Shown here piece after piece: positions 39,130 through 58,409 of a DNA stretch of 64,000 bases (positions are counted from its first letter, which is position 1; the number at the start of each line of letters is the position of its first letter). The translations under genes and the position numbers were made by a program. The stretch comes from Skermanella mucosa (lineage in GTDB: Bacteria; Pseudomonadota; Alphaproteobacteria; Azospirillales; Azospirillaceae). The notes below the pieces were generated by a model that had not been told where the DNA came from, did not search any database, and worked only from the letters and a program-made list of their open reading frames with translations. Location of the stretch: positions 3,282,501-3,346,500 of the forward strand of contig NZ_CP086106.1 in NCBI RefSeq assembly GCF_016765655.2, read 5' to 3'.

Positions 39130-40164
39130 TCAGACGGCACCGTGGCGGACCGATGCATCCGACAGCATCCGGGCATAGTCCCGACGTAGGGAAATCGGCT
39201 CGATGATCTCGACATGGGGTTCCCAGGTGAACAGGTGCCAGCAGAGCTCCTTGAGCCCGCCGGCGCGGAACCGGACGAGCAGCGCGCCGTCCGGCCCGGC
39301 TTCCTTGGCTTCGTCGTCATGGAACCGGTGCGACGCGGCGTCGGCGGCACGGGCCGGATCGAAGCGCAGCACGATGTCGGCCGGCTGCTCCTGGAAGATG
39401 CCGAACGACTGGGCGGCGTAGCGGCGCAGGTCGAAGTCCGGGGGGCGGTCCGCCGTCTCTGCCAAGGGCTCCACCTTGCCGATGTTCGGCAGGCTGTACA
39501 GCCGCGGCTGGGTCCTGCCGTCCGGCACTGCGACGAGATAGTGCCGAACGCCGTAGAGCAGGCCGAGCGGCGACACGGTCCGCCAGCCCGCCTTCCCGCC
39601 GCCGCGCGGCGAATAGTACAGGCGTACCCGCTCCATCGCCTTGAAGGCATGGCGGAGCGGGGCGAGTACCTCGGGCGTCACGACCGGACGGGGTCCCGGC
39701 CGCGCGGCAAGCCCCTCGGCCTCGATCAGGGCCGCGAGGTCGGGCTCCATGCGGGCGAGTTCCCGAGGCCGTAGTGATGCCCGCAGCTTGACGGCAAGCC
39801 GGCCCAGGATGACGGCCCGCACCTCGAGTCCCTCGCGCCGCAGCGCCTGCTCCGCCGCCTCCATCTCGAGCAGCTCCTCCGGGGTGACGGCGACCAGCTC
39901 GCCGAGCGTGCCGGGGGCAATGCGCCAGCGCTTCACCGGTTCGTCGGAGGGAACCACTTCGACGCGGTCGCCGAATGCCCGGACCACGACATCGCGCATG
40001 CGCTCGGCCGTGCGCCGGCTGACGTGGAATTCCTCCTGGATGTCCTGCAGCGAAACGCCCAGGCGCGTTCCCTGCATCATCAGCAGGAGCTGGAAGATGT
40101 TATCGATCTGGCCGTAGGCCAAGGATGCCTCCGTGACTGCGCCTGGCGGCGAATGCCGGGCCAT
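39130..40164 (-). CDS. WYL-domain transcriptional regulator
   Basis: From ATG 40164 the 344-aa protein begins with a winged helix-turn-helix (QIDNIFQLLLMMQGTRLGVS, LQDIQEEFHVSRRTAERMRD) at about 15-60. The WYL region follows at about 165-240: LRHAFKAMERVRLYYSPRGG, WRTVSPLGLLYGVRHYLVAV, PRLYSLPNIGKVEPLAE. The C-terminal extension (FRAGGLKELCWHLFTWEPHV) follows, typical of this family. WYL regulators sense ligands such as nucleic-acid ends or nucleotides and control repair and defence operons. The gene is divergent from the AAA+ ATPase, with about 90 bp between starts, so it probably regulates that gene and itself. A longer frame to 40242 exists but would run into the ATPase promoter. Confidence 0.88.
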   Translation of the reverse strand: MARHSPPGAVTEASLAYGQIDNIFQLLLMMQGTRLGVSLQDIQEEFHVSRRTAERMRDVVVRAFGDRVEVVPSDEPVKRWRIAPGTLGELVAVTPEELLEMEAAEQALRREGLEVRAVILGRLAVKLRASLRPRELARMEPDLAALIEAEGLAARPGPRPVVTPEVLAPLRHAFKAMERVRLYYSPRGGGKAGWRTVSPLGLLYGVRHYLVAVPDGRTQPRLYSLPNIGKVEPLAETADRPPDFDLRRYAAQSFGIFQEQPADIVLRFDPARAADAASHRFHDDEAKEAGPDGALLVRFRAGGLKELCWHLFTWEPHVEIIEPISLRRDYARMLSDASVRHGAV

Positions 40165-40254
40165 CCTATGCGTCAGATGTTGACGGACCGTTTCTTGACG
40201 ACCGGCGCAGGCGTGAGACCATGCGACCGGATTCAACGGCATGGAGCCCGGCTG

Positions 40255-42942: not shown

Positions 42943-43674
42943 TCAGGAGCGGTTCTTGAACCGCCAGCTTTCGTTCCCGGTCTCCAGGATGTCGCAGTGG
43001 TGCGTCAGCCGGTCGAGCAGGGCGGCCGTCATCTTGGTGTCGCCCCCGAAGACGGACGGCCACTCGGCGAAGCTCAGGTTCGTCGTGATGAACACCGACG
43101 TCCGGGAATAGAGCTTGCTCAGCGTATGGAACAGCAGCTGGCCGCCATTCTGGGAGAACGGCAGGTAGCCGAGCTCGTCCAGCACCACCAGATCGACGCG
43201 GGTCAGCTGGTCGGCGAGCTTGCCGGCCTGACCGGCCCGGGCCTCGGCCTCCAGCCGGTTCACCAGGTCGATGACGTTGAAGAACCGGGCGCGCGCGCCG
43301 CGGCGTACGCAGTTGGCGGTGATGGCGATGCAGATGTGCGTCTTGCCGGAACCGGTTCCGCCGACGAACACGGCGTTGCGCTGGGTCTCCAGGAAGCCGC
43401 CGTCGTGCAGGTCGCGCACCAGCGCTTCGTTCACCGGGCTGGCCGCGAAGTCGAACTCGGCAAGCGTCCTGGCCAGCGGCAGCCTGGCCGCGCCGAGCTG
43501 GTAGCGGATTGAGCGCGCCTTCTTCTCGGCGCGCTCCGCGGCCAGCAGGTCGCCCAGGATCTGCTGGACGGTGCGCTGCCGCTTCAGGCCGTCCGCCATC
43601 ACCTCGTCGTAGACCGCGCGCATTCCCGCCAGGCTGAGCTCGGCCATCATCGCCATCAGCTCATGCCGCTCCAT
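42943..43674 (-). CDS. istB: IstB, AAA+ ATPase helper of IS21 transposition
   Basis: The 243-aa protein has the IstB layout: an N-terminal helical region ([20 protein letters not shown]), then the Walker [16 protein letters not shown] at about 105, the Walker [21 protein letters not shown], and [20 protein letters not shown] with the sensor asparagine. IstB forms ATP-dependent decamers on target DNA and stimulates IstA. Its start overlaps the end of istA by 14 nt, the usual coupling in this family. Length and motifs are intact. Confidence 0.95.
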
Positions 43675-45178
43675 GACAGCTCTCCCGTGCCGCGCGCAGG
43701 CCGTCGTAGCGCGCGCAGTCGGCGGCCGGTTCGATCGTCAGCGTCAGCGCCGCCGGCACTGCCACGGGCGGCGTCGGGGTGACGTCGTGGCGCCGGGCGA
43801 GGATGTTCAGGATGACGTCCCGGCTGTGCGTCCCGCTCGCCAGCGCCTCGCGGCAGGCGGCCTCCACCGCGTCCAGGCCGTCGGTCAGGATGGCGGCGAG
43901 AATGCCGACGAACTGCCGGTCGGCTTCGTCGGAGCGGCCCAGCCGGGCCCTCACCTTGGCCAGGGCCGCAGGCAGCTCCCACTGCCGGAACGGCGCCCCG
44001 TTGCGCAGCGCGCCGGGCTTGCGGGCGAGAACCGGCAGGTAGTGCAGCGGATCGTAGATCGTGTGGCCGTGCCCGAAGGCCCGCCGGTGCTCGGCCACCA
44101 CCGTCCCATCGCACCACGCCACGAGCCGGTCGGCGTAGGCGCGTACCTGCACCGGCTTGCCGGCGGCCGCCGCCGCCACGCTGTAGCGGTTGCGCTCGAA
44201 GCGGATCAGGCAGGTCTTCGACGCGCTGGCCGTGATCTCGTGGAAGCCGTCGAAGGCGTTGGCCACGGCGACCAGCGCCGGCCGCTCCGCCTCGAACACC
44301 GCCCACACCGTCCGGTTCGGGAACTCGGTATGCGGTGCGGTGCGCGCCCACGCTTCCACGGCGTGGCGCAGCCGCTCGTTTACTTCCTCCAGCGTCGCCG
44401 CCCGCAGGCGTGGGATGAACAGGCGGTGGCGCAACGTGCCGACCTGGTTCTCGACCTGCCCCTTCTCCCAGCCCGAGGCCGGAGTGCAGGCCACCGGCTC
44501 GACCAGATAGTGCGAGCACATCTGGGCGAAGCGGCGGTTGAAGCGCCGCTCCTTGCCGACGAACACGGCGTCAACCGCCGTCTTCATGTTGTCGTAGATG
44601 CCGCGCTCGCACAGGCCGCCGTAGAATGCCGCGGCGCGGGCGTGGGCGTCGAACACCATCTCCTGGGTCTGGCGCGGGTAGACCGCCACGAACGGCATCC
44701 GGCTGTGGCACAGGCGCACGTGGGCCACCTGCACCTTCGTCGTCACCCCGTCCAGGACGATCCACTCCTCCGCCCAGTCGAACTGGTAAGCCTCGCCCGG
44801 TGCGAAGGTCAGCGGCACGAATGCCTCGGCCGTCGTCGCCGGCTGGCGCCGCTTCCATCGCGTGATATAGCGCCGCACGGCGTCGTAGCCGCCCTCGAAC
44901 CCGGCCGCTGTCAACTGGTTGAAGAGCCCCCGGTAGTCGAGCCGGTCGCGCGCCGGCCGGCGGTCGTTCTCCGCGATCAGCCGTTCCAGCTCCGCCTGGA
45001 ACTGCCCCAGCTTCGGATACGGCTGCCGCGTCCGCTCGTACCGCGGCGCCGTCTCACCGGACCGCAGGTACTTCGTCACTGTCTCCCGGTTGATCTTCAA
45101 CGCCCGGGCGATGGCCCGAACGCTCCGCCCCTTCGCGTGCTCCCGCCGTATCCGCGCGATCGTCTCCACTGTCAGCAT
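43661..45178 (-). CDS. istA: IstA, DDE transposase of IS21
   Basis: The 505-aa protein begins with a helix-turn-helix ([38 protein letters not shown]). The catalytic core follows: [20 protein letters not shown] (first D), [20 protein letters not shown] (second D), [20 protein letters not shown] (E). A basic C-terminal part follows. The length is normal for IS21 transposases and no frame break is seen. It acts with IstB, which is encoded downstream with a 14-nt overlap. Confidence 0.95.
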
Positions 45179-46655: not shown

Positions 46656-47551
46656 ATGGGAGCGGACAGGCGGCAGAACGGGGCGATTTTCTGGGGCGTC
46701 GCGCAACGCTTGGCGTTCATCGACACGTGGTTCTACTGGGGAGGCAGCGTCAGCCGCGTCGACCTGGCGCGCCGCTTTTGCATCTGCACCCAGCAGGCGT
46801 CGGCCGACTTGGGACGGTACGCCGAAATTGCTCCTGGCGACATGGCGTACAACCGGAGCCTAAAGCGATATAAAGCTTCGGAGATCTTTCAGCTCGCGAT
46901 TGTCAAGCCCGATCCGGCACGCTACTTGGCACAGCTTCTGATAGGCGACAGGGCGGCGAATGAAGCGGATTCCTGGCTGGACACGCCGCCAGCGTTCGAC
47001 CTCGTGTCGGGACCTTTGCGCCGCATCGACCCGGTTGTCCTCAAGCGTTACGTGGCAGCGGTCAGGGATGTCGCCCCGATCAAAGTCTTCTACCAGTCTA
47101 TGTCTCTATGTCAAAGTCGGAGCCTGATTGGCGTCGACCTTCGTCTCATACCCTCGCCATCGACGGGGTCCGATGGCATTCCCGTGCAGCCTGTTATGAG
47201 GACGATGTCTTCAAAGACTTTGTCATAGCCCAGATGCCAGACGTCCGACATCCCGAACCGTCCTGCTTCGACGCCAAGACAGACATCGCCTGCCATACAC
47301 GGATCCGGGCCATCATCGGCCTTCATTCCAAGCTTTCCGGCGGTCAGAGGAAGGTGGTCGAGACCGATTGCGGAATGACGGGAGGCGTCGCGGTAATAGA
47401 CGTGCGGCGGTGCTTCCATTTCTACTTTTTGAAGTGGTTCGGCCTCGATGTGGACGCATCGACGCGCCGGTCGGAAATCCAGCATATCATTCTGCTCAAC
47501 AGTGAAAACGTCATGGCGGCGGTGAACGGGCAGACGGGGGAAACATGCTGA
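46656..47551 (+). pseudogene. CapW/BrxR-type WYL regulator, frameshifted by an 8-bp duplication
   Basis: From ATG 46656 the N-terminal winged helix reads RLAFIDTWFYWGGSVSRVDL, ARRFCICTQQASADLGRYAE, IAPGDMAYNRSLKRYKA. This is very close to the start of CapW/BrxR regulators that guard CBASS, BREX and related islands. At 47097-47112 an exact 8-bp duplication shifts the frame, and the first frame ends at 47228. The WYL part continues in the second frame: MSKSEPDWRRPSSHTLAIDG, VRWHSRAACYEDDVFKDFVI and a C-terminal HFYFLKWFGLDVDASTRRSE to 47551. Removing 8 bp gives one protein of about 295 residues. It lies on the same strand as the large operon and is its likely repressor. Loss of repressor would derepress the operon, unless the repeat varies reversibly. 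Confidence 0.82.
47097..47112. repeat. 8-bp tandem duplication disrupting the CapW-like gene
   Basis: TCTATGTC occurs twice in direct succession (47097-47104 and 47105-47112). One copy gives the in-frame reading FYQSMSKSEPDWRR; two copies shift the frame. Confidence 0.95.
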
Positions 47552-48033: not shown

Positions 48034-48216
48034 ATGGATCTCTCCAATGACGCGGCAACAAAAATTTATTTTATTTATCTTCCAACGCCCATGCACATAG
48101 AAAATCTCTCCAAGATCCTTGACAGAACGATCGTTCAATTGGAAAGGGGTCTGCGGCGACTTGATCGAGTTGAGGAATTGCGCTTCCAAGCCTACGGAGA
48201 CCTAGTCCAATGGTGA
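48034..48216 (+). CDS. Small ORF translationally coupled to the large helicase gene (60 aa)
   Basis: MDLSNDAATKIYFIYLPTPM is followed by HIENLSKILDRTIVQLERGL and RRLDRVEELRFQAYGDLVQW. The latter is helical with charged residues and fits a small antitoxin- or adaptor-like protein. Its stop overlaps the start of the next gene by 7 nt, typical of coupling. A shorter start at 48091 (MHIENLSK) is possible. There is no family recognition, and no strong ribosome-binding site is seen. Confidence 0.45.
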   Translation: MDLSNDAATKIYFIYLPTPMHIENLSKILDRTIVQLERGLRRLDRVEELRFQAYGDLVQW

Positions 48217-51200
48217 ACATTGTTCCGATGGGCCGCGGCCCTCACAGCCGCGAAGTTGCGGGCTTGGAACTCCTGAAGGCCAAGCTGCCGGACGACTGGA
48301 CGATCTTTACGAACCTCGACTTGGCCCGGCCCCGCGGCGGGGCTCGGGAAATCGACGTCATCCTCATCGCGGCGGACCGCATCCTGCTCATCGACCTCAA
48401 GGACTGGCATGGGCGCATCGAGTCCATGAACGGATGCTGGGTGCAGAACGGAATGGACCGCGGGCGCTCGCCGGTCGCGAAGATCCTGGAGAACCGCCGG
48501 GATCTGGAACTGCTGCTGAAGGGATACCTGGAGAGGCTGGCGCGCCGCCAAGGTGGGCGCTCACGGGACGTCATCGTGCCACTGGTGCAGGGCCTTGTCG
48601 TTCTGACGCAGCAGCCGAACATCGACGGCATCGCGGAGACGGAGCGCGAGGCCGTCCACATGATCGACCCGTTCCTCCGCATGATCGCGAGTCCGAAGGC
48701 GCGCATCGATCGGCTGGGCAAGCCTAGGCACGAGGTCGTGCTCACGAGCGCCGAATGGCGCAAGAAGCTTGGCGGTTTTTTCAGGGCCGGCGATGGGGCC
48801 TTCTGTCATGGTGAGCGGCAGTACGGCCCGTTTCAGGCGCTCTCTGAAAACTCCTCGTTCCGCCACCAGACCGGCATGTTCGCGGAGTACGACGCCGAGG
48901 ACCGGGTGACCGCCAATGCGGCGGGCCTGCTTCGGCTGTGGGACTTCACCAAGGCGGACTCCCGGTTCCAGACCGAAGAGGGACGCCACGACATCGCCGG
49001 CCGCGAAAAGATCGTCATCGCCGCCCTCAACAACCTTCATGAAGAGTTCCGCACCAGCATATTGCAGCCGCGCGTCGACGACCATGAGCGCAGCGTCCGC
49101 TATTGGGAGGTGTTCGACCGGAGCCGGCGCCTGAAGCGCCTTTCGGAGTTCATGGCCTCGGAGGTTACCCGGCTGGCGCGGGAAGACAGGCTCGCCCTGG
49201 CGCAACAGCTCATCGCGAAGGTAGCCGCGCTGCATGAGGTGGACGCGGTCCATCTCGACATCGGGACGCACAGCGTGTGGTTGGAGACGCCGACGACGGT
49301 GCGGCTGTCCCACCTGTTCTCCGCCAGCATTCCGGAAACCAAGTCGCTCGGCGACAAGCGCTACCAGTTCCTGAGCAGCACGGCCCTGCCGGAGGACATC
49401 GTCGGTCAGGCCACCGCCAAGGCCGCCGACAAGAAGCGGCGGGACGTGTTCCTGCTCGGCGTCGCGGTGCACGGCCTGCTGTTCGGTCGTATGCCCGACG
49501 CGCCGAGCGGCCTTGGGGTGCTGGAGTGGGATCCCGCCGTCGATGAGGAGGGCAAGTTCGGCGGCCTGTGCAGTTGGTTCGGGCGGGCGCTCAACTTTGT
49601 GCCGGAAGAGCGCTTCCCGGATGCCCAGGCGATGCTGGAAGCGTTCGACGACGCCATGTCCGACAGGCTCCTCCAGCAGGCTGCGTTGGAGGGGCTGGAG
49701 AGGTTCCGGACCATTCCAAATCAGCGCGTGCTCTACCGGGACTTTCCAGAGGAGGAGTTGCTGCGGGAGGACAACCGCATCCTGATGTGGCGGAGCGTCT
49801 GGAACGGCAACCCGGTCCTGGTGAAGATGTGGCGGCGCACGTGCTGGGGCGACCAGAGCAAGGAACTGGTCCGCATCCACGACTTTCTGGAGTCCGCTGA
49901 CGGCTTCCGGCGGTCGCCGCCGGAAGGCGTTGCGGCCATCCGGCACGTGGCTTGGGTGGACGACGCCATCGTGCTTGTCCAGGACTGGCACGGGCTTCCG
50001 AATCTCACGGACGCCGTCGCCTTGGTGCCGGAACGGTGGAACTCGGAAGCGACCGTGCTGGAGTTCATCCTGCGGCTCGCACGCCGCGTGACCGCCCTGC
50101 ACGAGGCGGGACACCCGCACGGCGACCTCAAGCCGGAGAACATCCTGGCGCCGCAGGAAGGCGACCCGGAGCCGATCCTGATCGACTTCTTCGATTTCAC
50201 CCCAGTTGACGACGGCGAGATCCGGACGTCCGCGTACACGCCCCCAGGAGGCGGCGGGCGCGACGAGCGCGACATATATGCCGTCACGAAGATTGCCGAG
50301 GAGCTAACCGGAGCATGGACATCCGACGCTGGCCGCGCGGTAGCAAGGGCGGTTGCGGATTGCCGCAGGGTCGGCAGCGAGAACCTGACCCTGCTCCCGC
50401 TCATCGAGACCATTGACGCCCTGCTCCACCCGCCCAAAGCGGTCGCCCGCAGGCGCCTGGTCCTGGGCCTCGTGGAGGCCACCCCCGGCGCGCTATTGCC
50501 GGACGAAGGCGAATTCTGCTTCCGGTTCGCCAAGGATCGGCCGACGTTCTACATCCGCGGAGCGTTCGAGGAGATCCAGATCGAGCTCGACTGGAAAATG
50601 AAGCCACTGCGGGCGAAGCGCGTTCCGCTCGAACAGGGACGCATCGCCGGGTTTTCCCGCTTCGAGTTCATGAAGGTGGTCATGGACGTGGAGGTCCGCG
50701 GCACCCCGGCGTACGACTGGGGAGACTTGGCCGACATCCTGAATGAGCCGGACGTCCTGGAGCACTGGGGGTTGGTCGCCAAGGCGGCGGTCGGGACGAC
50801 GCCAAGACGCCCCTCGAAGGAAACGGATTTCCTTGATGAAGCGGCGGTGGACGGCGAGGCCGCGGAAGACGAACTGTGTGAAGAGATCGCAGGCCGTTCC
50901 GCGGCGGGGGCGCCGGGCACAGGCATCGACAGCATCGACATCCCAACCCTCTGGCGACGGCTCATGGACGCCGAGGAGGCCCTGACGACGGACGGCGTTG
51001 CGTTAGGGAACAGCATCGAGGTCAGAGGCACGCAGCGTCACGCCGTGCCCTTCGAGCTGGAGAACGGCGCGTTCGATTACAAAAAGGATGACCGGGTAAC
51101 GGTCGAAAAGTACAAAAAGGGTCGGTGGGTAAGATTCGGCAAGCTTGACCACACGGTTTCGGACGCCGAGCGTCTCATGATCATTCCCTTCAACCAGCCG

Positions 51201-53210
51201 ACAGGGCTGGGAGGGTCGGCGGTGTCCGAAGGGGAAAGACTCCGGTTCGAGAGCCATTTCGAGAACCAGAGCCGCAATCGGCGGGAAGCCGCCATTTCCC
51301 GCATACTCCGCCGCGGCTCGGTCGCCGCCGGGCTCATCGACGCGTTCAACCCCCGCTCGGGAGCGGAGCCGGCAAAAGAGGCCGTCGCCGTCGATGAACC
51401 CCAGCTGGAGTCCCGGTACGGGCTCAACGACGACCAAGTCGAGGCGTTCAGGCGCATCGTTGCGACGCGCCCGGTGGGCTTGGTCCAGGGGCCGCCCGGC
51501 ACCGGCAAGACGAAATTCATCGCCGCGCTGGCCCATTATGCGCTGACTTCCGGCATTGCCAAGAACGTCCTGCTCGCAAGCCAGTCGCACGAGGCCGTCA
51601 ACAACGCCGCCGAAGCGGTGATGAAGCTCATGGGCGAGGCCGACGAACCTCTCCGCATGATCCGCGTCAGCCAGGAGGGCGCGGTGTCGAAGATGCTGCT
51701 GCCCTACCATACGTCGCGGGTCGAAAGCGCCTACAAGGACCGTTTGAAAGCGCAGTTCAAGCGCCGGATGAAGATTGTTGGCCGATACTTGGGCGTTCCC
51801 GACGAGTTTACGGCGCAGCTGGTGTTCCTGGAGCGGGTTGTCGGACCGCTTGCTGAGCGGTTCTACCGGGAGCAGGCCAAGCCCAAGGCCGACGGCCGGA
51901 CGCCGGAAGAGGCGCTGACCCGGCTGCTCGACAAAATGGGCGCCCCGGCGGAGCCGTCCGCTTACGAAGACAGCGGCGCCTTGGTCCGGTCCGTCGTCGC
52001 CCGGTTGTCGGCGCGCCACCCCCAGGTCAGCGAGGCCGTCGTCCGCAAGATCCGGTCGGCGATCCGGCTCGGCAACGACTTCATCGGCGTCGTCTCGTCC
52101 GAGCGCCGCAGCTTCGAGACGTTCCTTGCCGGCACCCGGCAGATCGTGGCCGGAACCTGCGTCGGCCTGGGACGCGGGGCGCTGGGTCTGACGCAGATAC
52201 CGTTCGACCTCGTCATCGTGGACGAGGCTGCCCGGTGCACAGCGAGCGAACTGGCTGTCCCCATCCAGGCCGGGCGCTGGATCGTGCTGGTCGGCGACCA
52301 GTCTCAGTTGGAGCCCCACCACAAGCCGGAAATCGTCAGCCAAGTCAGCAGCGACCTCGGGATCGGCCCTGAGGAAATCATCATGAGCGACTTCGAGAGG
52401 CTGTTCGGCTCGAGGTACGGCGCGGCGGCATCCCACCAGCTCTCCCGGCAGTACCGCATGCTGCCGCCCATCGGCCGCATCGTCTCCCAGGCGTTCTATG
52501 GCGGCAGCCTGCGGCACGAGCGGACGACGCCCATCGTCCCGCCGGACGTCCTCCCGGAGGAGCTGGGGAGCGTTGTCAGTTGGCTGGAGACCGATTCCCT
52601 GGGCACGAGCGCCTTCCAGACCGAAGAAGGAACCAGCCTCGTCAACCGAAAAGAGGCGGAGCTGATCATCAGTCTCCTGCGCGCGTGGGACGATCATGAC
52701 CCCTTCCAGCAATGGCTGGCCAACCAGCCGGAAGACCGGCATGCCATCGGTCTCATCTGCACCTACGGCGCGCAACGCGATCTCCTGGACAAGCGGGTCC
52801 GCCAGGCCGGGCTGACCGAGGCCATGCGCCGCAACATAAAGGTCGGCACGGTCGACAGCTATCAGGGCAAGGAAAACCCTATCGTCGTGCTCTCGCTCAC
52901 GCGCAACAACGCGGACGGCGCGCCTGCGGACGGCCGCCGCGAAGTCAGGGAAGGCTTCATGGCCCGCGCCAACCGGATAAACGTGGCGGCCAGCCGCGCC
53001 ATGGACCGCCTCGTCCTGGTCGGCGCCCGCTCGCGCTGGCCGAAGCGGGGGCCGATGGGTCTGGTTGCCGCCGCGTTCGAGCGGGAGCTGGCCATCGGCG
53101 AGGCGTCGGTCATCGACGCTCAGGACTTCATGGAAAAGATCCGCAACGCATCGAAAGCATTGAGGCGGAAGGCGTCCGTCAAGGAGCCCGCCGCTGGAGG
53201 AGCGCCATGA
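48210..53210 (+). CDS. NERD-pseudokinase-kinase-SF1 helicase protein (1666 aa)
   Basis: Four parts can be read. A NERD nuclease-related domain at about 15-150 has GGAREIDVILIAADRILLID followed by LKDWHG, giving the D and K of a PD-(D/E)xK-like core. A first kinase-like region at about 225-480 has a weak loop (VDAVHLDIGTHSVWLE) that lacks the catalytic residues. A second kinase region at about 490-740 has HEAGHPHGDLKPENILAPQE near 636, with the HGDLKPEN loop intact, and ILIDFFDF in place of DFG. An Upf1-like SF1 helicase at about 1070-1630 has LVQGPPGTGKTKFIAALAHY near 1094, VIVDEAARCTASELAVPI near 1338, and GTVDSYQGKENPIVVLSLTR near 1547. Kinase plus COG1112-like helicase is the layout of MkoA of the Mokosh defence system; NERD plus kinase recalls PglW. 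I know no described system with exactly this order. Confidence 0.85.
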   Translation: MVNIVPMGRGPHSREVAGLELLKAKLPDDWTIFTNLDLARPRGGAREIDVILIAADRILLIDLKDWHGRIESMNGCWVQNGMDRGRSPVAKILENRRDLELLLKGYLERLARRQGGRSRDVIVPLVQGLVVLTQQPNIDGIAETEREAVHMIDPFLRMIASPKARIDRLGKPRHEVVLTSAEWRKKLGGFFRAGDGAFCHGERQYGPFQALSENSSFRHQTGMFAEYDAEDRVTANAAGLLRLWDFTKADSRFQTEEGRHDIAGREKIVIAALNNLHEEFRTSILQPRVDDHERSVRYWEVFDRSRRLKRLSEFMASEVTRLAREDRLALAQQLIAKVAALHEVDAVHLDIGTHSVWLETPTTVRLSHLFSASIPETKSLGDKRYQFLSSTALPEDIVGQATAKAADKKRRDVFLLGVAVHGLLFGRMPDAPSGLGVLEWDPAVDEEGKFGGLCSWFGRALNFVPEERFPDAQAMLEAFDDAMSDRLLQQAALEGLERFRTIPNQRVLYRDFPEEELLREDNRILMWRSVWNGNPVLVKMWRRTCWGDQSKELVRIHDFLESADGFRRSPPEGVAAIRHVAWVDDAIVLVQDWHGLPNLTDAVALVPERWNSEATVLEFILRLARRVTALHEAGHPHGDLKPENILAPQEGDPEPILIDFFDFTPVDDGEIRTSAYTPPGGGGRDERDIYAVTKIAEELTGAWTSDAGRAVARAVADCRRVGSENLTLLPLIETIDALLHPPKAVARRRLVLGLVEATPGALLPDEGEFCFRFAKDRPTFYIRGAFEEIQIELDWKMKPLRAKRVPLEQGRIAGFSRFEFMKVVMDVEVRGTPAYDWGDLADILNEPDVLEHWGLVAKAAVGTTPRRPSKETDFLDEAAVDGEAAEDELCEEIAGRSAAGAPGTGIDSIDIPTLWRRLMDAEEALTTDGVALGNSIEVRGTQRHAVPFELENGAFDYKKDDRVTVEKYKKGRWVRFGKLDHTVSDAERLMIIPFNQPTGLGGSAVSEGERLRFESHFENQSRNRREAAISRILRRGSVAAGLIDAFNPRSGAEPAKEAVAVDEPQLESRYGLNDDQVEAFRRIVATRPVGLVQGPPGTGKTKFIAALAHYALTSGIAKNVLLASQSHEAVNNAAEAVMKLMGEADEPLRMIRVSQEGAVSKMLLPYHTSRVESAYKDRLKAQFKRRMKIVGRYLGVPDEFTAQLVFLERVVGPLAERFYREQAKPKADGRTPEEALTRLLDKMGAPAEPSAYEDSGALVRSVVARLSARHPQVSEAVVRKIRSAIRLGNDFIGVVSSERRSFETFLAGTRQIVAGTCVGLGRGALGLTQIPFDLVIVDEAARCTASELAVPIQAGRWIVLVGDQSQLEPHHKPEIVSQVSSDLGIGPEEIIMSDFERLFGSRYGAAASHQLSRQYRMLPPIGRIVSQAFYGGSLRHERTTPIVPPDVLPEELGSVVSWLETDSLGTSAFQTEEGTSLVNRKEAELIISLLRAWDDHDPFQQWLANQPEDRHAIGLICTYGAQRDLLDKRVRQAGLTEAMRRNIKVGTVDSYQGKENPIVVLSLTRNNADGAPADGRREVREGFMARANRINVAASRAMDRLVLVGARSRWPKRGPMGLVAAAFERELAIGEASVIDAQDFMEKIRNASKALRRKASVKEPAAGGAP

Positions 53211-54754
53211 GCCAGAGTCCGCTGAAACGCACGACCCTATCGCTCGGCAAGCCGAAGCCGCCTCCGGAGCCCGAAGAGGACAAGGCCATCGACATCGGCG
53301 TCTTCGACGTCCGGCTGCCCTGCCGGAAGTTCAGCGTGACTCACAAGGTCACCAAAGAGGCGGACCTGTCCCTGACGCTGGAGTTCCTGTTGCGCCTGGT
53401 TCACGCGGCGGACGGCATCCCAGAAGAGGACGTGGCCGCCTTCTTCGGGTTTGACCATCGCGAGTTCAGCTTCGTCGTTGGCGAAGCGGAAAGCAAAGGC
53501 TATGTGTCGAGACGGGACGGCCGTCTCTGGATTATGGATGCCGGTCGGAATCTGTTCAGGGCTGATGAGGAAGTCCCCCAGATATACAAGGTCGAACAGG
53601 AGATCGAACGGGTGGGGTTCGACCTTCTGGCTTTCGCGCCTACGGATCCAGACAGCATGAACGACTTCGACCGGGCGCTGCCGGAACTGGAGCCGTACGA
53701 CCCACGGGCTTTTGCCGAACCCAGCATCCGTGTACGGGAAAGATTCCGTCACTTCTTCCGGCAGTTTAAGACATCCACCGACGGCAACGGCAGATTCCGC
53801 GAACTCTACTCGATTGATTCGGTCAAGGCGGAAGACAGGTATTCCTGCGTGGTCACAATCGTCGCAAGATCGTCGTCGCTCAATCCCGGGGCGCCGATAG
53901 CCAACCTGGAGCGGTGGATGTCGGGTCTGGACCTCGCCGAGCGGTCGGCGGTCGAAGATGCCGCGGCGCGCCACCTGGCGAAGCTCCGGATCAGTCGGCA
54001 GCCCACCGACGCGGACGCCTACGGCTGCCTGCTGGATCTGGCGCCGGAGTACCTTCGGGAGTACGCGCGGCGGGACGGCTTCGCTGTCGAGCGCTTCTTC
54101 AAGGAGACGGTGAAGCGCGCCGGCGAGTTCCGGCAGGACCGGATGACGGTGGGAATCGTTGGGTCGCTTCTCACCGAGGGTAACCTTCCCCGGCTCGTCA
54201 AGGCGGCCGAACTGACGGCTCAGGCGTTCAAGTCCAGGGCGAGCGCCGATGCGGATGCGGGGGGCGGATCGCCGCAGCCCAGTGTCGGCGGCCTGGTCTG
54301 GGTCGTACCCGGCACGCCGGGCTGGGGCGAGACGCGTGTGCTGCCGAACGTCCTGGAGGAACTGGCCAAGAACCATCCGGAGTCGGCGGGGCCGGATGCC
54401 AGCGAGGCCGATTTCATCACGCTCGCCGTGACCGCCGGCCGGCCGCGGCGTCATATCGAGCAGGCGTTCAGCCACCTGCTGGAGGGGCCCGAGGCCCCCA
54501 TGTTCCCGGGCCGCCTTGAGATCCTGCTGCTGCCGGGACGGGTCGCAGCCGTCCTCGTCCATGCTCCGGTCGGCGCGGCCGAGGCCGTGGCGGTGCCGCT
54601 CGGAGTCCTGAGCTTTGACCCCGACGTGGTCGAGCGCGTCACGGCCTTCGTCGGGAACCGGATTTTCTCCATCAGCAATCCCCATTGGCAGCGGATCCCG
54701 ATGGAGGTCTGGCAGGCGGCGAAGGCCATGTTCGGCATCGCGGAGACCGGATAG
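53207..54754 (+). CDS. Operon partner of the helicase, winged-helix-like N-terminus (515 aa)
   Basis: The start overlaps the helicase stop (ATGA). After a disordered start (LSLGKPKPPPEPEEDKAID), residues about 50-110 (LEFLLRLVHAADGIPEEDVA, AFFGFDHREFSFVVGEAESK, GYVSRRDGRLWIMDAGRNLF) look like a winged helix. The middle (residues 120-330) is mostly helical (LDLAPEYLREYARRDGFAVE). The C-terminus contains RLEILLLPGRVAAVLVHAPV and LGVLSFDPDVVERVTAFVGN, strand-rich and unrecognised. I looked for the HxK...D signature of PLD nucleases and did not find it here. The tight coupling means stoichiometric production with the helicase. Its role may be nucleic-acid recognition. Confidence 0.75.
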   Translation: MSQSPLKRTTLSLGKPKPPPEPEEDKAIDIGVFDVRLPCRKFSVTHKVTKEADLSLTLEFLLRLVHAADGIPEEDVAAFFGFDHREFSFVVGEAESKGYVSRRDGRLWIMDAGRNLFRADEEVPQIYKVEQEIERVGFDLLAFAPTDPDSMNDFDRALPELEPYDPRAFAEPSIRVRERFRHFFRQFKTSTDGNGRFRELYSIDSVKAEDRYSCVVTIVARSSSLNPGAPIANLERWMSGLDLAERSAVEDAAARHLAKLRISRQPTDADAYGCLLDLAPEYLREYARRDGFAVERFFKETVKRAGEFRQDRMTVGIVGSLLTEGNLPRLVKAAELTAQAFKSRASADADAGGGSPQPSVGGLVWVVPGTPGWGETRVLPNVLEELAKNHPESAGPDASEADFITLAVTAGRPRRHIEQAFSHLLEGPEAPMFPGRLEILLLPGRVAAVLVHAPVGAAEAVAVPLGVLSFDPDVVERVTAFVGNRIFSISNPHWQRIPMEVWQAAKAMFGIAETG

Positions 54755-54810
54755 CGCCGTGTCCTGGGCCATGTTCGGCATCGCGGAGTCCGGATAGCGC
54801 CGTGTCCTGG
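54725..54810. repeat. 43-bp tandem duplication across the stop of the 515-aa gene
   Basis: Units at 54725-54767 and 54768-54810 are identical except for one base (GAGACC versus GAGTCC). Each contains the last codons (AMFGIAE), a stop and the first 13 bases of the intergenic sequence. The duplication leaves the protein unchanged and lengthens the spacer before the DUF262 gene to 116 bp. Confidence 0.95.
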
Positions 54811-54870
54811 ATGACCCTAAAATTGCGGATCTCAACAAGTACTGACGGCGCTTGACGCGATGGAGGCCGA

Positions 54871-56772
54871 ATGCCCGGCATATTCACGACCCACCCGATC
54901 TTCCTCTCCCAACTGCTCGACGGGCTGAGGTCGGGGAGAATCCAGCTGCCCGACTTCCAGAGGGGGTGGGTCTGGGACGACGACCGCATCAAGGGCGTTC
55001 TCGCCAGCGTCTCCCGAGACTTTCCGGTCGGCGCGGTGATGATGCTTCAGACCGGCGGCAAGCTGCGGTTCGAGCCGCGTCCCGTCGAAGGCGTGAAGGA
55101 GCCCGCCTGCAAAGACCCCGAGCAACTCATCCTCGATGGCCAGCAGCGTCTGACATCGCTGTTCCAGGCGACGATCTTCGGCGCCCCGGCCGCCACCGTG
55201 AACGCCAAGAAGCAGAGGATCGAGCGCTGGTACTACTTCGATATCGAGAAAAGCGTCGCCTCGCCCGAACTCCGTGAGGAAGCGGTCGAAAGCCTGCCGC
55301 CCAGCCGGAAGCGGGAGCTCATCACCGGCAAGGTGGAGCTCGACCTCTCCACGCGCGAATTGGAGTACGAGAACCTGATGTTCCCGTGCTCCTCGCTGTT
55401 CAACGCGTTCGAGTGGCAAAACGGATTCCTGGCCTACTGGAAGTACGACCCGCAGAAGACGGAATTGTTCGCGAAGTTCCAGGCGGAAGTCATTCAACGG
55501 TTCATGCAGTACCAGATCCCCGTGATCACGCTCACGGACCAGGTCAGCAAGGAGGCCGTCTGCCACGTCTTCGAGAAGGTGAACACCGGCGGCGTCACCC
55601 TGACGGCGTTCGAGTTGCTGACGGCCAGCTTCGCCGCCGACGCGCAGGGATTCCGGCTCCGCGACGACTGGCTGGGGCCGGCCGGCAAGGGCGACGGCAT
55701 ACGCAAGACCCTCGGGGTGCACCCGGCCCTGAAGAAGCATCGGGTGCTGGAAAAGACGGCCTCCACCGACTTCCTCCAGGCGGTGGCGCTCTACCACACC
55801 TACCGCAAGCGCCTCGATGCGGCGGCCAACGGCGTCAAGGACGAGCACCTGCCCTCGGTCAGCTGCACCCGGGCCACCATCCTGAACCTGACGTTGGACA
55901 ATTACCTGAGCGCCCGCAAGCCGGCTCTGGACGGCTTGCTGGCGGCCGGGAAGTTCATCCGCGAACTCCGCATCTTCCGCTCGGAAGACCTTCCCTACCA
56001 GTCGCAGCTGGTGCCGCTTTCCATCATCCTGGCCTGCCTGGGGCCGGACTGGGAGGGGCACGGCATCAAGCAGAAGCTCCGACGCTGGTACTGGTGCGGC
56101 GTCCTCGGTGAACTCTATGGCGGCGCCATCGAAACCAGGTTCGCCCGCGACGTTCCGGAGGTGCTCGCCTGGATCAAGGGCGGCCCGGAACCTCGGACCG
56201 TGACCGATGCGGCCTTCAACCCGACACGGCTGCTGACCCTGCGGACCCGCGGCAGCGCCGCCTACAAGGGCGTCTACGCGCTCCTGATGGAGAAAGGCGG
56301 GCTCGACTTCCGGACCGGCAACCCCATCAACATCCAGGTGTTCGAGGAGGAGGCCATCGATATCCACCACATCTTTCCGAAGAAGTGGTGTGCCGGGAAC
56401 GCCGTCGATGCCCGTGAGATGGACTGCATCGTTAACAAGACCGCCATCTCCGCCCGCACGAACCGCATGATCGGCGGCAAGGCTCCTTCCGCTTACCTGC
56501 CGGGTCTGGAGAAGAAGTTCCAGATCGGCCCGGAAAAGCTGAAAAGCTTCCTTGAAACCCACGTCATCGCGCCCGAGTTGCTGCGCCAGGACGACTTCCA
56601 GGGCTTCTTCGCCGCCCGCAGCAAGGCGCTCCTGGACATCATCGCCGAGGCCATGGGCAAGGAGGTACAGGTCACAGCCGAACTACCGAGCGGCCAGGAG
56701 GCCATGATCGAGGATGACGAATCCAACGCCGCCGACCTTGATGACGAACTAGAAGAGCAGGCGGCCGCGTAG
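54871..56772 (+). CDS. DUF262 and HNH (GmrSD-like) nuclease (633 aa)
   Basis: The N-terminal DUF262 domain has RIQLPDFQRGWVWDDDRIKG at about 24-43 and LILDGQQRLTSLFQATIF at about 88, the ParB/GmrS-type NTPase signature QxPxFQRxxxW...DGQQRLT. The C-terminal part has AIDIHHIFPKKWC at about 497-509 and NKTAISARTNRMIGGKAPSA, the DUF1524-type HNH/His-Me nuclease. The middle has YYFDIEKSV and KVNTGGVTLTAFELLTASF (the VNTGG segment usual in DUF262). In GmrSD such proteins bind nucleotides and cut DNA with modified bases. In this operon the partner genes differ from GmrSD, so it may be the effector of a kinase/helicase sensor. ATG 54871 begins 116 bp after the previous stop. Confidence 0.88.
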   Translation: MPGIFTTHPIFLSQLLDGLRSGRIQLPDFQRGWVWDDDRIKGVLASVSRDFPVGAVMMLQTGGKLRFEPRPVEGVKEPACKDPEQLILDGQQRLTSLFQATIFGAPAATVNAKKQRIERWYYFDIEKSVASPELREEAVESLPPSRKRELITGKVELDLSTRELEYENLMFPCSSLFNAFEWQNGFLAYWKYDPQKTELFAKFQAEVIQRFMQYQIPVITLTDQVSKEAVCHVFEKVNTGGVTLTAFELLTASFAADAQGFRLRDDWLGPAGKGDGIRKTLGVHPALKKHRVLEKTASTDFLQAVALYHTYRKRLDAAANGVKDEHLPSVSCTRATILNLTLDNYLSARKPALDGLLAAGKFIRELRIFRSEDLPYQSQLVPLSIILACLGPDWEGHGIKQKLRRWYWCGVLGELYGGAIETRFARDVPEVLAWIKGGPEPRTVTDAAFNPTRLLTLRTRGSAAYKGVYALLMEKGGLDFRTGNPINIQVFEEEAIDIHHIFPKKWCAGNAVDAREMDCIVNKTAISARTNRMIGGKAPSAYLPGLEKKFQIGPEKLKSFLETHVIAPELLRQDDFQGFFAARSKALLDIIAEAMGKEVQVTAELPSGQEAMIEDDESNAADLDDELEEQAAA

Positions 56773-56913
56773 CCCGCCTCTTCTGCTTGTGCAACGATGG
56801 CGATACGGGAGGCCTCAGTGCTAAACGAAAGCAAATTTGCCGGAATGCGCGTGCGTACTGAAGTTCACCGCGAACGAATTCAATAACAATAGTGCAGAGC
56901 ACCGGGGCACGAC

Positions 56914-58161
56914 ATGTCTAATCAAGTCTTCGAGTGGCTTTCAATGGATGCAATCGGAAATCTCATCGCACGCGCGCGCGATCGCGTCGTGCTCGCGGCG
57001 CCGGGTATCGATGAGGGGGTCGCCGCCGCGCTGCGGTTGGCCGGGGAGAACCTGCCTCCGGCCAAGGTCCAGGTCATTCTCGACATCGACGAGGACAATT
57101 GCCGCGTGGGCTACGGGAACATCGACGGCTACTCCGGCCTGCTCGAAACCACCATCAGCATCCGGCGGTGCCGGGGGCTGAGGATCGGCTTCCTGTTGGC
57201 TGACAACACGGGCTACATCTTCGGGATGCCGCCCCTCATGATCGAGGCGCCGTCGCGTCTGGCGGGATGCCCGAACGCGATCCGGGCGACCCCGGACCAG
57301 ATCGAGGCCCTCGTCGCGGCGACGGCGCCCTCGGCCGGGTCGAGCCCGTCGCCGGCCGCCAAGCCGGAGATCGGCGTCGAGGCAGTTCCGGACGAGGAAA
57401 TCAAGCGCATCGAGAAGAGCATTCAGGACAATCCGGTCCAGGATTTCGACCTCGGCCGGGTTGTGCGGGTGTTCTCCGCCCACGTCCAGTTCGTCGACCT
57501 GAGCGTCGAGGGGGCGCAGCTTCAAAACCATACGGTAAAGATCCCAGCGGAGCTCCTCACCGTCGTCAAGGACAAGGACACGCGGGACCGTCTGACCGCG
57601 GCGTTCCGCATGATCTCCGACGGAAGCCGGATCGGCGGCGACAAGGTGCGCGCGGCCGCCAACGAGGTCAGGAAGGGATTCATCCGGGTCCACCCGACTT
57701 ACGGGGGTGTCATTCTCAAATCCAAGAGGGCAAAGTTCGATGAGCGGGTGAAGGAGCTCCAGACGGAGTTGGAAAAGCACAAGCAAGCGGTTCGGAGGCA
57801 GTTCTCCAGAGAGTCCGAGAACTCGAAGAAGGATCTGGTTCACGCGTTCTGGAGGGCGGTGCGCGCCAATCCTCCAAGCGACCTTCAGGCACAAATGGCC
57901 GGTGATAAGCCAACGGCCGAAGAGGCCAAGGAGTACCTGAAGTACCTGCTCGACAGGGCTTTCCCGGACGTGGATGAAGTGTGCGATGCGATGAAGGTCT
58001 CCGTAGTGATGAAGGACGTGACCTGGGACACCCTGAACGATCGGACGTTTGTTGATTGGCTGCAGAGTCAGTTTCCGGTGAACAAGGAGCTCAGGAAGCC
58101 CTTCGAGGAATATCGGGCGGCAAAGCAGAGGACGGACACGGCATTGAGGGTGCCCGCGTAA
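56914..58161 (+). CDS. Fourth large gene of the operon, possible degenerate PLD-like fold (415 aa)
   Basis: The N-terminal 120 residues read LIARARDRVVLAAPGIDEGV, AAALRLAGENLPPAKVQVIL, DIDEDNCRVGYGNIDGYSGL and GLRIGFLLADNTGYIFGMPP followed by LMIEA. This resembles the strand order of a PLD-type half-domain (A..VVLxxPgx...AL...VxVxLD...GLRIGxxxADdxGxIFxxxPL). The HKD residues are replaced (RIGF for HxK). The C-terminal two thirds (residues 130-415) form a helical region with KELQTELEKHKQAVRRQFSR and GGVILKSKRAKFDERVKE, possibly coiled coil, and an end rich in K, D and R. Mokosh type I pairs an MkoA-like helicase with a PLD protein, so the parallel is noteworthy. Function and family are unproven. 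Confidence 0.7.
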   Translation: MSNQVFEWLSMDAIGNLIARARDRVVLAAPGIDEGVAAALRLAGENLPPAKVQVILDIDEDNCRVGYGNIDGYSGLLETTISIRRCRGLRIGFLLADNTGYIFGMPPLMIEAPSRLAGCPNAIRATPDQIEALVAATAPSAGSSPSPAAKPEIGVEAVPDEEIKRIEKSIQDNPVQDFDLGRVVRVFSAHVQFVDLSVEGAQLQNHTVKIPAELLTVVKDKDTRDRLTAAFRMISDGSRIGGDKVRAAANEVRKGFIRVHPTYGGVILKSKRAKFDERVKELQTELEKHKQAVRRQFSRESENSKKDLVHAFWRAVRANPPSDLQAQMAGDKPTAEEAKEYLKYLLDRAFPDVDEVCDAMKVSVVMKDVTWDTLNDRTFVDWLQSQFPVNKELRKPFEEYRAAKQRTDTALRVPA

Positions 58162-58196
58162 AGGGGAAGCTCACAGAAGGGCAAGGAGAACGGCAG

Positions 58197-58409
58197 ATGT
58201 GGTTTAGTGCACGGACGCCGCGGTTCAGTGTACAGCCCCTTGTAGCCTTCCCTCCAGGTCTGGTCCCTGACAACAAAACGCGCTATGAAGGTCTTCGACC
58301 CAAGCTAATCGCACAGACGGCTCGGCACGTCCTATATGATCTCTTTAAGAGCCAGGCCGCCTTCGGAAGATGTTTCGATCGCCTAGAAGAGGGACTTCCG
58401 GTTGACTGA
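58197..58409 (+). CDS. Small ORF at the end of the operon (70 aa)
   Basis: ATG 58197 with AAGGAGAACGGCAG before it reads MWFSARTPRFSVQPLVAFPP, then GLVPDNKTRYEGLRPKLIAQ and TARHVLYDLFKSQAAFGRCF. It starts 35 bp after the PLD-like gene on the same strand, so it is probably co-transcribed. There is no family recognition. It may be a truncated gene, because the serine-recombinase remnant begins less than 100 bp downstream. Confidence 0.45.
   Translation: MWFSARTPRFSVQPLVAFPPGLVPDNKTRYEGLRPKLIAQTARHVLYDLFKSQAAFGRCFDRLEEGLPVD

Follow-up and report, generated by a model that had tools for sequence, protein, structure and literature searches.

A stretch of 64,000 nucleotides (nt) from Skermanella mucosa (contig NZ_CP086106.1; hereafter the window) carries at positions 48034..58409 a locus of six open reading frames (ORFs) on the same strand, in which the genes of a Mokosh type I-like core, mkoA and mkoB, are followed by the gene of a DUF262 NTPase and by that of a 415-amino-acid (aa) protein, here called P415 (Table 1). 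The spacing computed from the coordinates, two overlaps of 7 and 4 nt and then gaps of 116, 141 and 35 bp, agrees, as do the coordinates themselves, with an initial annotation made from the sequence alone. The four large ORFs are taken as genes and not as chance ORFs because they are open and have relatives elsewhere; the 515-aa frame of mkoB is nested in a longer mechanical ORF (52712-54754, 680 aa), and the start at 53207 was used. The two small ORFs had been counted in the initial annotation as completing the set, a view that was abandoned: no credible match to the 60-aa ORF was obtained across 14 loci carrying both Mokosh genes (MkoAB loci; best E 0.23), and the 70-aa ORF resembles only a piece of a LysR regulator (NF052633, E 0.0015, 17.5 bits against a cut-off of 540).

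Table 1. Genes and other features at the locus and in its upstream region (window positions)
Feature	Position	Strand	Remarks
60-aa ORF	48034..48216	+	overlaps mkoA by 7 nt; no family above cut-off; probably not a conserved part
mkoA, 1666 aa	48210..53210	+	NERD, pseudokinase and kinase regions, Upf1-like superfamily 1 (SF1) helicase; PADLOC PDLC03921
mkoB, 515 aa from ATG 53207	53207..54754	+	PADLOC PDLC03923; weak winged-helix similarity; HxKx4D absent
DUF262 NTPase with C-terminal HNH-like motif, 633 aa, GmrSD/BrxU-like	54871..56772	+	PF03235; DGQQR, HH[IV]FP
P415, 415 aa	56914..58161	+	pseudo-PLD at about 1-166, conserved middle part, long helix, conserved KDVT motif; unnamed
70-aa ORF	58197..58409	+	weak likeness to a LysR-regulator fragment; probably a remnant
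BrxR/WYL-type regulator, 5' part	46656..47228	+	tblastn to the WYL regulator of L007, E 7e-9; no Pfam hit of its own
BrxR/WYL-type regulator, 3' part, other frame	47108..47551	+	tblastn to the following stretch of the L007 gene, E 8e-13; no Pfam hit over cut-off
IS21-type istA/istB pair, upstream	42943..45178	-	PF01695 233.7 bits; PF22483 75.3 bits; PF00665 33.3 bits

The giant 1666-aa protein matches the PADLOC MkoA model PDLC03921 almost from end to end (1541.7 bits; residues 4-1640, model positions 3-1603 of 1607). For the 515-aa protein the match is to the MkoB model PDLC03923 (339 bits, residues 23-485); judged by these profiles, the two proteins form a Mokosh type I pair in the PADLOC sense, encoded by adjacent genes with a 4-nt overlap. 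The NERD, kinase and Upf1-like helicase regions that had been read from motifs in the giant protein were borne out by Pfam, with matches to NERD (PF08378, 53.3 bits), to the two helicase halves AAA_11 and AAA_12 (PF13086 and PF13087, 114 and 116 bits) and, just below the cut-off of 31.7, to the kinase family PF00069 (31.0 bits). The window's protein has the motifs GPPGTGKT, DEAA and HGDLKPEN; the NERD motif E-x-D...[DE]-x-K and the kinase motif HGD[LI]xPxN are kept in 9/9 aligned MkoA sequences, the window's included, and the Walker A motif was found in the window's MkoA and in the six relatives checked. In the pseudokinase region (about residues 336-376) H-x-D is kept, with Ser at the usual place of Asn in the aligned relatives. 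An identity of the giant protein as PglW/Pgl was rejected, the PglW match being confined to residues 10-429 with 88.8 bits against the 1541.7 of MkoA; no BREX core genes (PglZ, PglX, BrxC) turned up among the locus proteins scanned.

In published accounts, type I Mokosh consists of a serine/threonine kinase-helicase gene and a separate PLD nuclease gene (PMC11672841), and NERD and PLD-like domains are given for this type (PMC10952713). The HxKx4D motif of such nucleases is absent from the window's MkoB and from 11 relatives (0/12; 12 of the 15 copies were used, L013, annotated in pieces, and L070 and L073, without annotation, being omitted). Because its MkoB lacks this motif, the core is named Mokosh type I-like and not canonical, and it differs from Mokosh type I also in the two extra genes that lie behind it. 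The other MkoB model of PADLOC, PDLC03922, meets the window's MkoB over residues 31-139 only, and the PLD protein of a DISARM system (DrmC of L017) meets the same model at positions 311-433, from which the PLD part seems to belong to the other MkoB branch. Near the N-terminus of the window's MkoB there is a weak MarR-family similarity indicative of a winged helix (E 0.035, with an unrelated secreted protein scoring better at 0.0055; E 0.19 with a profile). In the NERD-bearing Mokosh I branch (for example in the window, L011, L012 and L058-L062) MkoB has an invariant His (H452 in the window) and, nearby, an invariant Gly (G466). The initial annotation had likened the giant protein to MkoA and suggested P415 as a possible counterpart of MkoB; the former likeness stands, and the place of MkoB falls to the 515-aa protein, a comparison of the P415 and MkoB profiles having shown no relationship (hhalign probability 0.1%). 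With the model PDLC03923, MkoB was found in 1/385 genomes of the class, the window's own, and in searches with the single protein it was found in 6/369 genomes of the phylum (own included) and in 14 plasmid records; the 14 other MkoAB loci come from the nine of these records that were opened and from the five phylum genomes other than the window's.

The 633-aa protein contains the DUF262/GmrSD_N domain (PF03235, 100.7 bits against a cut-off of 33.2), and the motifs DGQQR and HH[IV]FP, the latter HHIFP in the window, are each present in 12/12 aligned sequences, the window's included. On these features the gene product is read as an intact GmrSD/BrxU-like NTPase with a putative HNH nuclease part, and the initial annotation was right to set a DUF262/HNH-type protein beside the MkoA-like gene. 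It shares with BrxU and GmrSD the DUF262 NTPase with DGQQR, the HNH-like HHIFP and the addition to varied defence operons, and differs in that the Pfam scan listed no DUF1524 family (HNH_4 was met below the cut-off, E 0.13) and in that its partner is Mokosh-like and not BREX. BrxU itself is described as an enzyme of DUF262-DUF1524 architecture whose gene is inserted between brxC and pglX and whose protection complements that of BREX (PMC8565348).

Relatives of the DUF262 protein were found by tblastn in 30 plasmid records and, at E 1e-40 or better, in 6/369 phylum genomes (own included), and 11 loci, a partial sample made of six of the plasmid records and the five phylum genomes other than the window's, were examined. 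The neighbours are varied. A relative lies within a type I restriction-modification (RM) operon with a 4-nt overlap in L054, opposite such an operon in L055, after DrmA-DrmB-DrmC in L017 and after a helix-turn-helix gene in L009 and L015, with methylase genes further down in L009; in L016, L018, L053 and L056 there is no recognised defence partner. In L010 the gene has a weakly Res-like gene on one side and, on the other, a gene resembling type III Mod (Mod 1210 bits), and the gene order is the same in L057, Mod-likeness having been scored in L010 only. The Res-like, DUF262, Mod-like order common to L010:6917-16395 and L057:5500-13998, with one extra ORF in the former, is possibly a form of type III RM into which a type IV-like enzyme is built.

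The new part of the locus is the P415 family, and it is there that the novelty of the locus lies. P415 was left unnamed by the Pfam, PADLOC and NCBIfam scans, and no description of the family was found in the literature searched, of which the coverage was partial. In the predicted structure, residues 1-166 form a PLD fold in which the HxKx4D motif is replaced at the aligned place by Rx[GA]x4D in 16/16 P415 sequences (window's included); the Asp alone is kept, His having become Arg and Lys having become Gly or Ala. The degenerate PLD-like fold proposed in the initial annotation is thereby upheld. P415 shares the fold of its N-terminus with PLD-fold nucleases and pseudo-PLD proteins (NucT, Nuc, SauUSI and BfiI; FAM83B and TrmBL2), and differs from them in lacking the catalytic His and Lys and in carrying an extra C-terminal half of about 250 aa that had no clear fold match. 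No catalytic motif was recognised in P415.

P415 is rare in the genome searches, which were blind to gene context. It was found in 1/82 genomes of the order (the window's own), in 4/385 of the class (own and one doubtful match included) and, by profile search, in 4/398 of the phylum (own included), and a pattern scan of 84,980 species genomes gave at least 13 loci, one of them doubtful and one repeating a contig of the class search. Four viral contigs and two plasmids also carry it, and none was found in phage records. After the doubtful L022 (56 residues, E 1.2e-4) and L036 (67 residues) and the duplicates L025 (the L020 contig, with the same length and ORFs) and L040 (the same P415 and AAA proteins as L039) had been removed from the counts, 22 distinct loci remained, the window's included.

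In 13/22 loci, a raw count, P415 belongs to a same-strand run that also contains recognised defence genes, and its gaps to neighbours in these operons range from -4 to 375 bp. Two of the hosts are BREX systems in which P415 stands between pglX and pglZ, one annotated as such (L007, gaps -1 and -4) and one recognised by its BrxC-, PglX- and BrxL-like scores (L035, gaps -4 and 45), where the PglZ match of 22.0 bits is below the cut-off of 25. Type I RM genes accompany P415 in L026, L032, L034, L068 and L069, the last truncated; in L032 two unrecognised ORFs separate P415 from the RM genes, and in L026 there are a YgjP-type gene and a 375-bp gap. A DrmD helicase (926 bits) adjoins P415 in L029, and in L067 (502-9700, minus strand) P415 shares an operon with an SF1 helicase bearing a C-terminal MTES_1575 restriction endonuclease domain, a DrmD-like helicase and an unrecognised 478-aa protein; the SF1 helicase, which P415 precedes, scores 223 bits against the PADLOC model of MkoC. 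In L037 P415 comes behind DUF499, a DUF1156 methylase and a PLD-SNF2 helicase, and in L038 behind the same PLD-SNF2 helicase, the two P415 proteins being close copies (89.5% identical). It follows a methylase and an AAA ATPase in L039, whose twin L040 has a PLD-SNF2 helicase in front; on these two IMG/VR contigs a run of further same-strand genes comes after the methylase, AAA ATPase and P415 genes, so that the defence operon may be carried by a phage or prophage. Overlaps of 1-4 nt between P415 and its neighbours occur in L007, L035, L069, L037, L038 and L039, and such placement suggests co-expression with the host system.

In the other nine loci (L008, L020, L021, L024, L027, L028, L030, L031 and L033) no defence gene was recognised in the same-strand run when the neighbours were compared with 24 reference proteins, the annotations of L008 and single Pfam scans for L024 and L028, a limited comparison by which some defence genes may have been missed. 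Several of the nine come from short contigs or lie close to the end of one. In L008 an annotated McrC fragment follows P415 at a distance of about 1.7 kb, and in L028 the other strand carries, about 2.3 kb off, a type I RM operon that includes a distant DUF262 protein. One TAG was counted inside the match for the stand-alone P415 copy of L020 (3588-4799, minus strand) and L004, and its ORF in L020, shorter than close relatives (402 aa against 418 aa in L030), may be slightly truncated.

Similarity among P415 proteins crosses the boundaries between host systems. The copy in the type I RM locus L034 is 67.2% identical to that beside DrmD in L029 and 51.9% identical to that of the BREX locus L007, and the copy from the DUF499 locus L037 is 64.1% identical to that of the type I RM locus L026; the two BREX copies (L007 and L035) share 26.6% identity only. 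In a tree of 20 sequences, eight of them bearing a context label and with the broken copy of L021 and the truncated copy of L069 omitted, the well-supported branches require a minimum of two independent changes in each of the labels BREX, type I RM and DrmD, where a change may be a loss as well as a gain, and the labels are no more clustered than when shuffled (200/200 shuffles were as low). The tree suggests repeated recruitment. The P415 of the window is a deep branch, with 33-35% identity to the two relatives compared; it forms a long branch, as do those of L067 and L068, and its join with L067 (34.7% identity) may be false.

The recurrence of the four-gene set was assessed by tblastn of the four window proteins against the fetched neighbourhoods, covering at least about 8.6 kb downstream of MkoB in the MkoAB loci and flanks from less than 0.1 kb (contig ends) to about 15 kb in the P415 and DUF262 loci. 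No DUF262 or P415 match was found in 14/14 other MkoAB loci, no MkoB or P415 match in 11/11 DUF262 loci, and no MkoB match or close DUF262 relative in 21/21 other P415 loci; the matches obtained were distant ones, to an SF1 helicase in L067 (E 2e-6), to the DUF262 protein of L028 (E 2e-5) and to an SF1-type helicase in L010 (E 2e-11). The initial annotation had proposed one integrated, undescribed four-gene system, and within the collections examined the four large genes come together in the window only, an outcome that this annotation had itself named as speaking against the proposal.

The surroundings of the locus bear on its origin and expression. Upstream, the regulator of CapW/BrxR type noted in the initial annotation is present by its matches to the WYL regulator at the head of the L007 BREX operon (PF13280, 55.6 bits there); its parts lie in two frames, so that either the gene is decayed or interrupted or the assembly is in error at this place. 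On the minus strand at 39130-40242, several kb further up and past the IS21 pair, is a second WYL/WCX regulator. The mobile-element remnants that had been placed at both ends were found at the upstream end, as the IS21 pair; the downstream genes scanned encode NnrS, a Crp-like regulator and an MFS transporter, the per-ORF scan not having included the ORFs at 58.4-59.3 kb. The guanine-plus-cytosine content is 0.58-0.66 at 46-58 kb against 0.73-0.74 at 20-34 kb, which is weak support for horizontal acquisition because it varies also in the first 20 kb (0.59-0.73) and at 34-46 kb (0.67-0.70).

The reading that we consider probable is that of a horizontally acquired anti-phage locus in which a Mokosh type I-like core is joined on the same strand by two separately exchangeable accessory genes, each of an add-on family that recurs beside other defence systems. 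The data show the gene identities, the intact motifs of mkoA and of the DUF262 gene, the predicted fold of P415, the gene contexts and the non-recurrence of the set; the mechanism in all its steps, and a joint action of the genes, we infer as follows. The MkoA helicase would probably sense and process foreign nucleic acid, its kinase and NERD domains would regulate or carry out the response, and MkoB would be a DNA- or partner-binding subunit. The DUF262-HNH protein would probably cut modified phage DNA in an NTP-dependent manner, as a second layer analogous to BrxU for BREX. P415, probably a non-catalytic PLD-fold protein, would bind a ligand, a nucleic-acid end or a partner helicase via a pocket marked by invariant Arg, Asp and Glu residues, would oligomerise through its long helix, and would act as an adaptor or sensor plugging into different helicase- or translocase-based systems. 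For the family as a whole, we propose tentatively that P415 is an undescribed pseudo-PLD accessory family repeatedly recruited into mechanistically different helicase- or translocase-based defence operons (BREX, type I RM, DrmD, DUF499/DUF1156, the methylase-helicase-ATPase operon of the viral contigs and the Mokosh-like locus), to which it would add one common function, perhaps the sensing of phage inhibition of the host system or of stalled or free DNA ends. Several observations weigh against the accessory-gene reading of the locus: the missing HxKx4D of MkoB, the nine P415 loci in which no defence gene was recognised, the interruption of the upstream regulator, by which expression may be altered, and the tight same-strand layout, which fits a single, simply rare functional system as well.

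Such a system could be an integrated composite: on sensing phage nucleic acid, MkoAB would license the DUF262-HNH nuclease, and P415 would form the bridge between them. The common strand, the 4-nt overlap and the gaps of 116 and 141 bp would suit it, as would an MkoB without the HKD motif, for which a neighbour could supply the nuclease; the set is found, however, in one genome only, the 14 MkoAB, 11 DUF262 and 21 P415 loci lacking the partners, and MkoA retains a conserved NERD domain of its own. Non-recurrence is compatible with a rare real system because the P415 lineage of the window is itself rare, and still the composite seems to us improbable. It was also considered that the locus is a defence island in which MkoAB, a stand-alone type IV restriction enzyme and a small P415 system lie side by side with no functional link, as would agree with the four partnerless DUF262 relatives and with P415 in loci such as the nine above; this is unlikely, although it deserves some weight, in view of the P415 genes that lie inside operons and overlap their neighbours. 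The accessory-gene reading, in which exchangeable genes accompany a Mokosh-like core, is the one retained.

For P415 itself, two other roles were weighed. It might be an abortive-infection effector or toxin triggered when a phage anti-restriction protein inhibits the host system, as PARIS is by Ocr: several of its host systems are BREX or type I RM, and backup suicidal effectors and PARIS-like modules answering Ocr are a theme described for BREX, in which, as with P415, extra genes are embedded in the defence operon (PMC12839542). The domains named for these effectors are HNH, HKD, PD-(D/E)XK, TOPRIM/OLD, HEPN, PIN and Schlafen, and an inactive PLD protein is not among them in the auxiliary-effector section of that source (PMC12839542). 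Against an effector speak the lack of a recognised catalytic motif in P415 and of a clear fold match for its C-terminal half. Moreover, Mokosh is not known to be a target of Ocr, and we would give the effector role a small chance. A role as negative regulator restraining the nuclease activity of the host system would be in keeping with the pseudo-enzyme fold, the conserved pocket and the presence of P415 beside very different nucleases; most copies of its host systems, however, are not known to carry P415, in agreement with its rarity in the genome searches, and such a restraining role has a similarly small chance.

With a core close to a known system, the locus does not represent a new kind of defence. 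It does reveal a branch of Mokosh without a recognisable PLD nuclease motif in MkoB, which bears on the identity of the Mokosh effector. What matters is P415: members of this one family lie within operons of the BREX, type I RM, DrmD and other kinds, and copies from different systems are up to 52-67% identical. Should P415 contribute the same function in machines so unlike one another, this would point to a step common to them.

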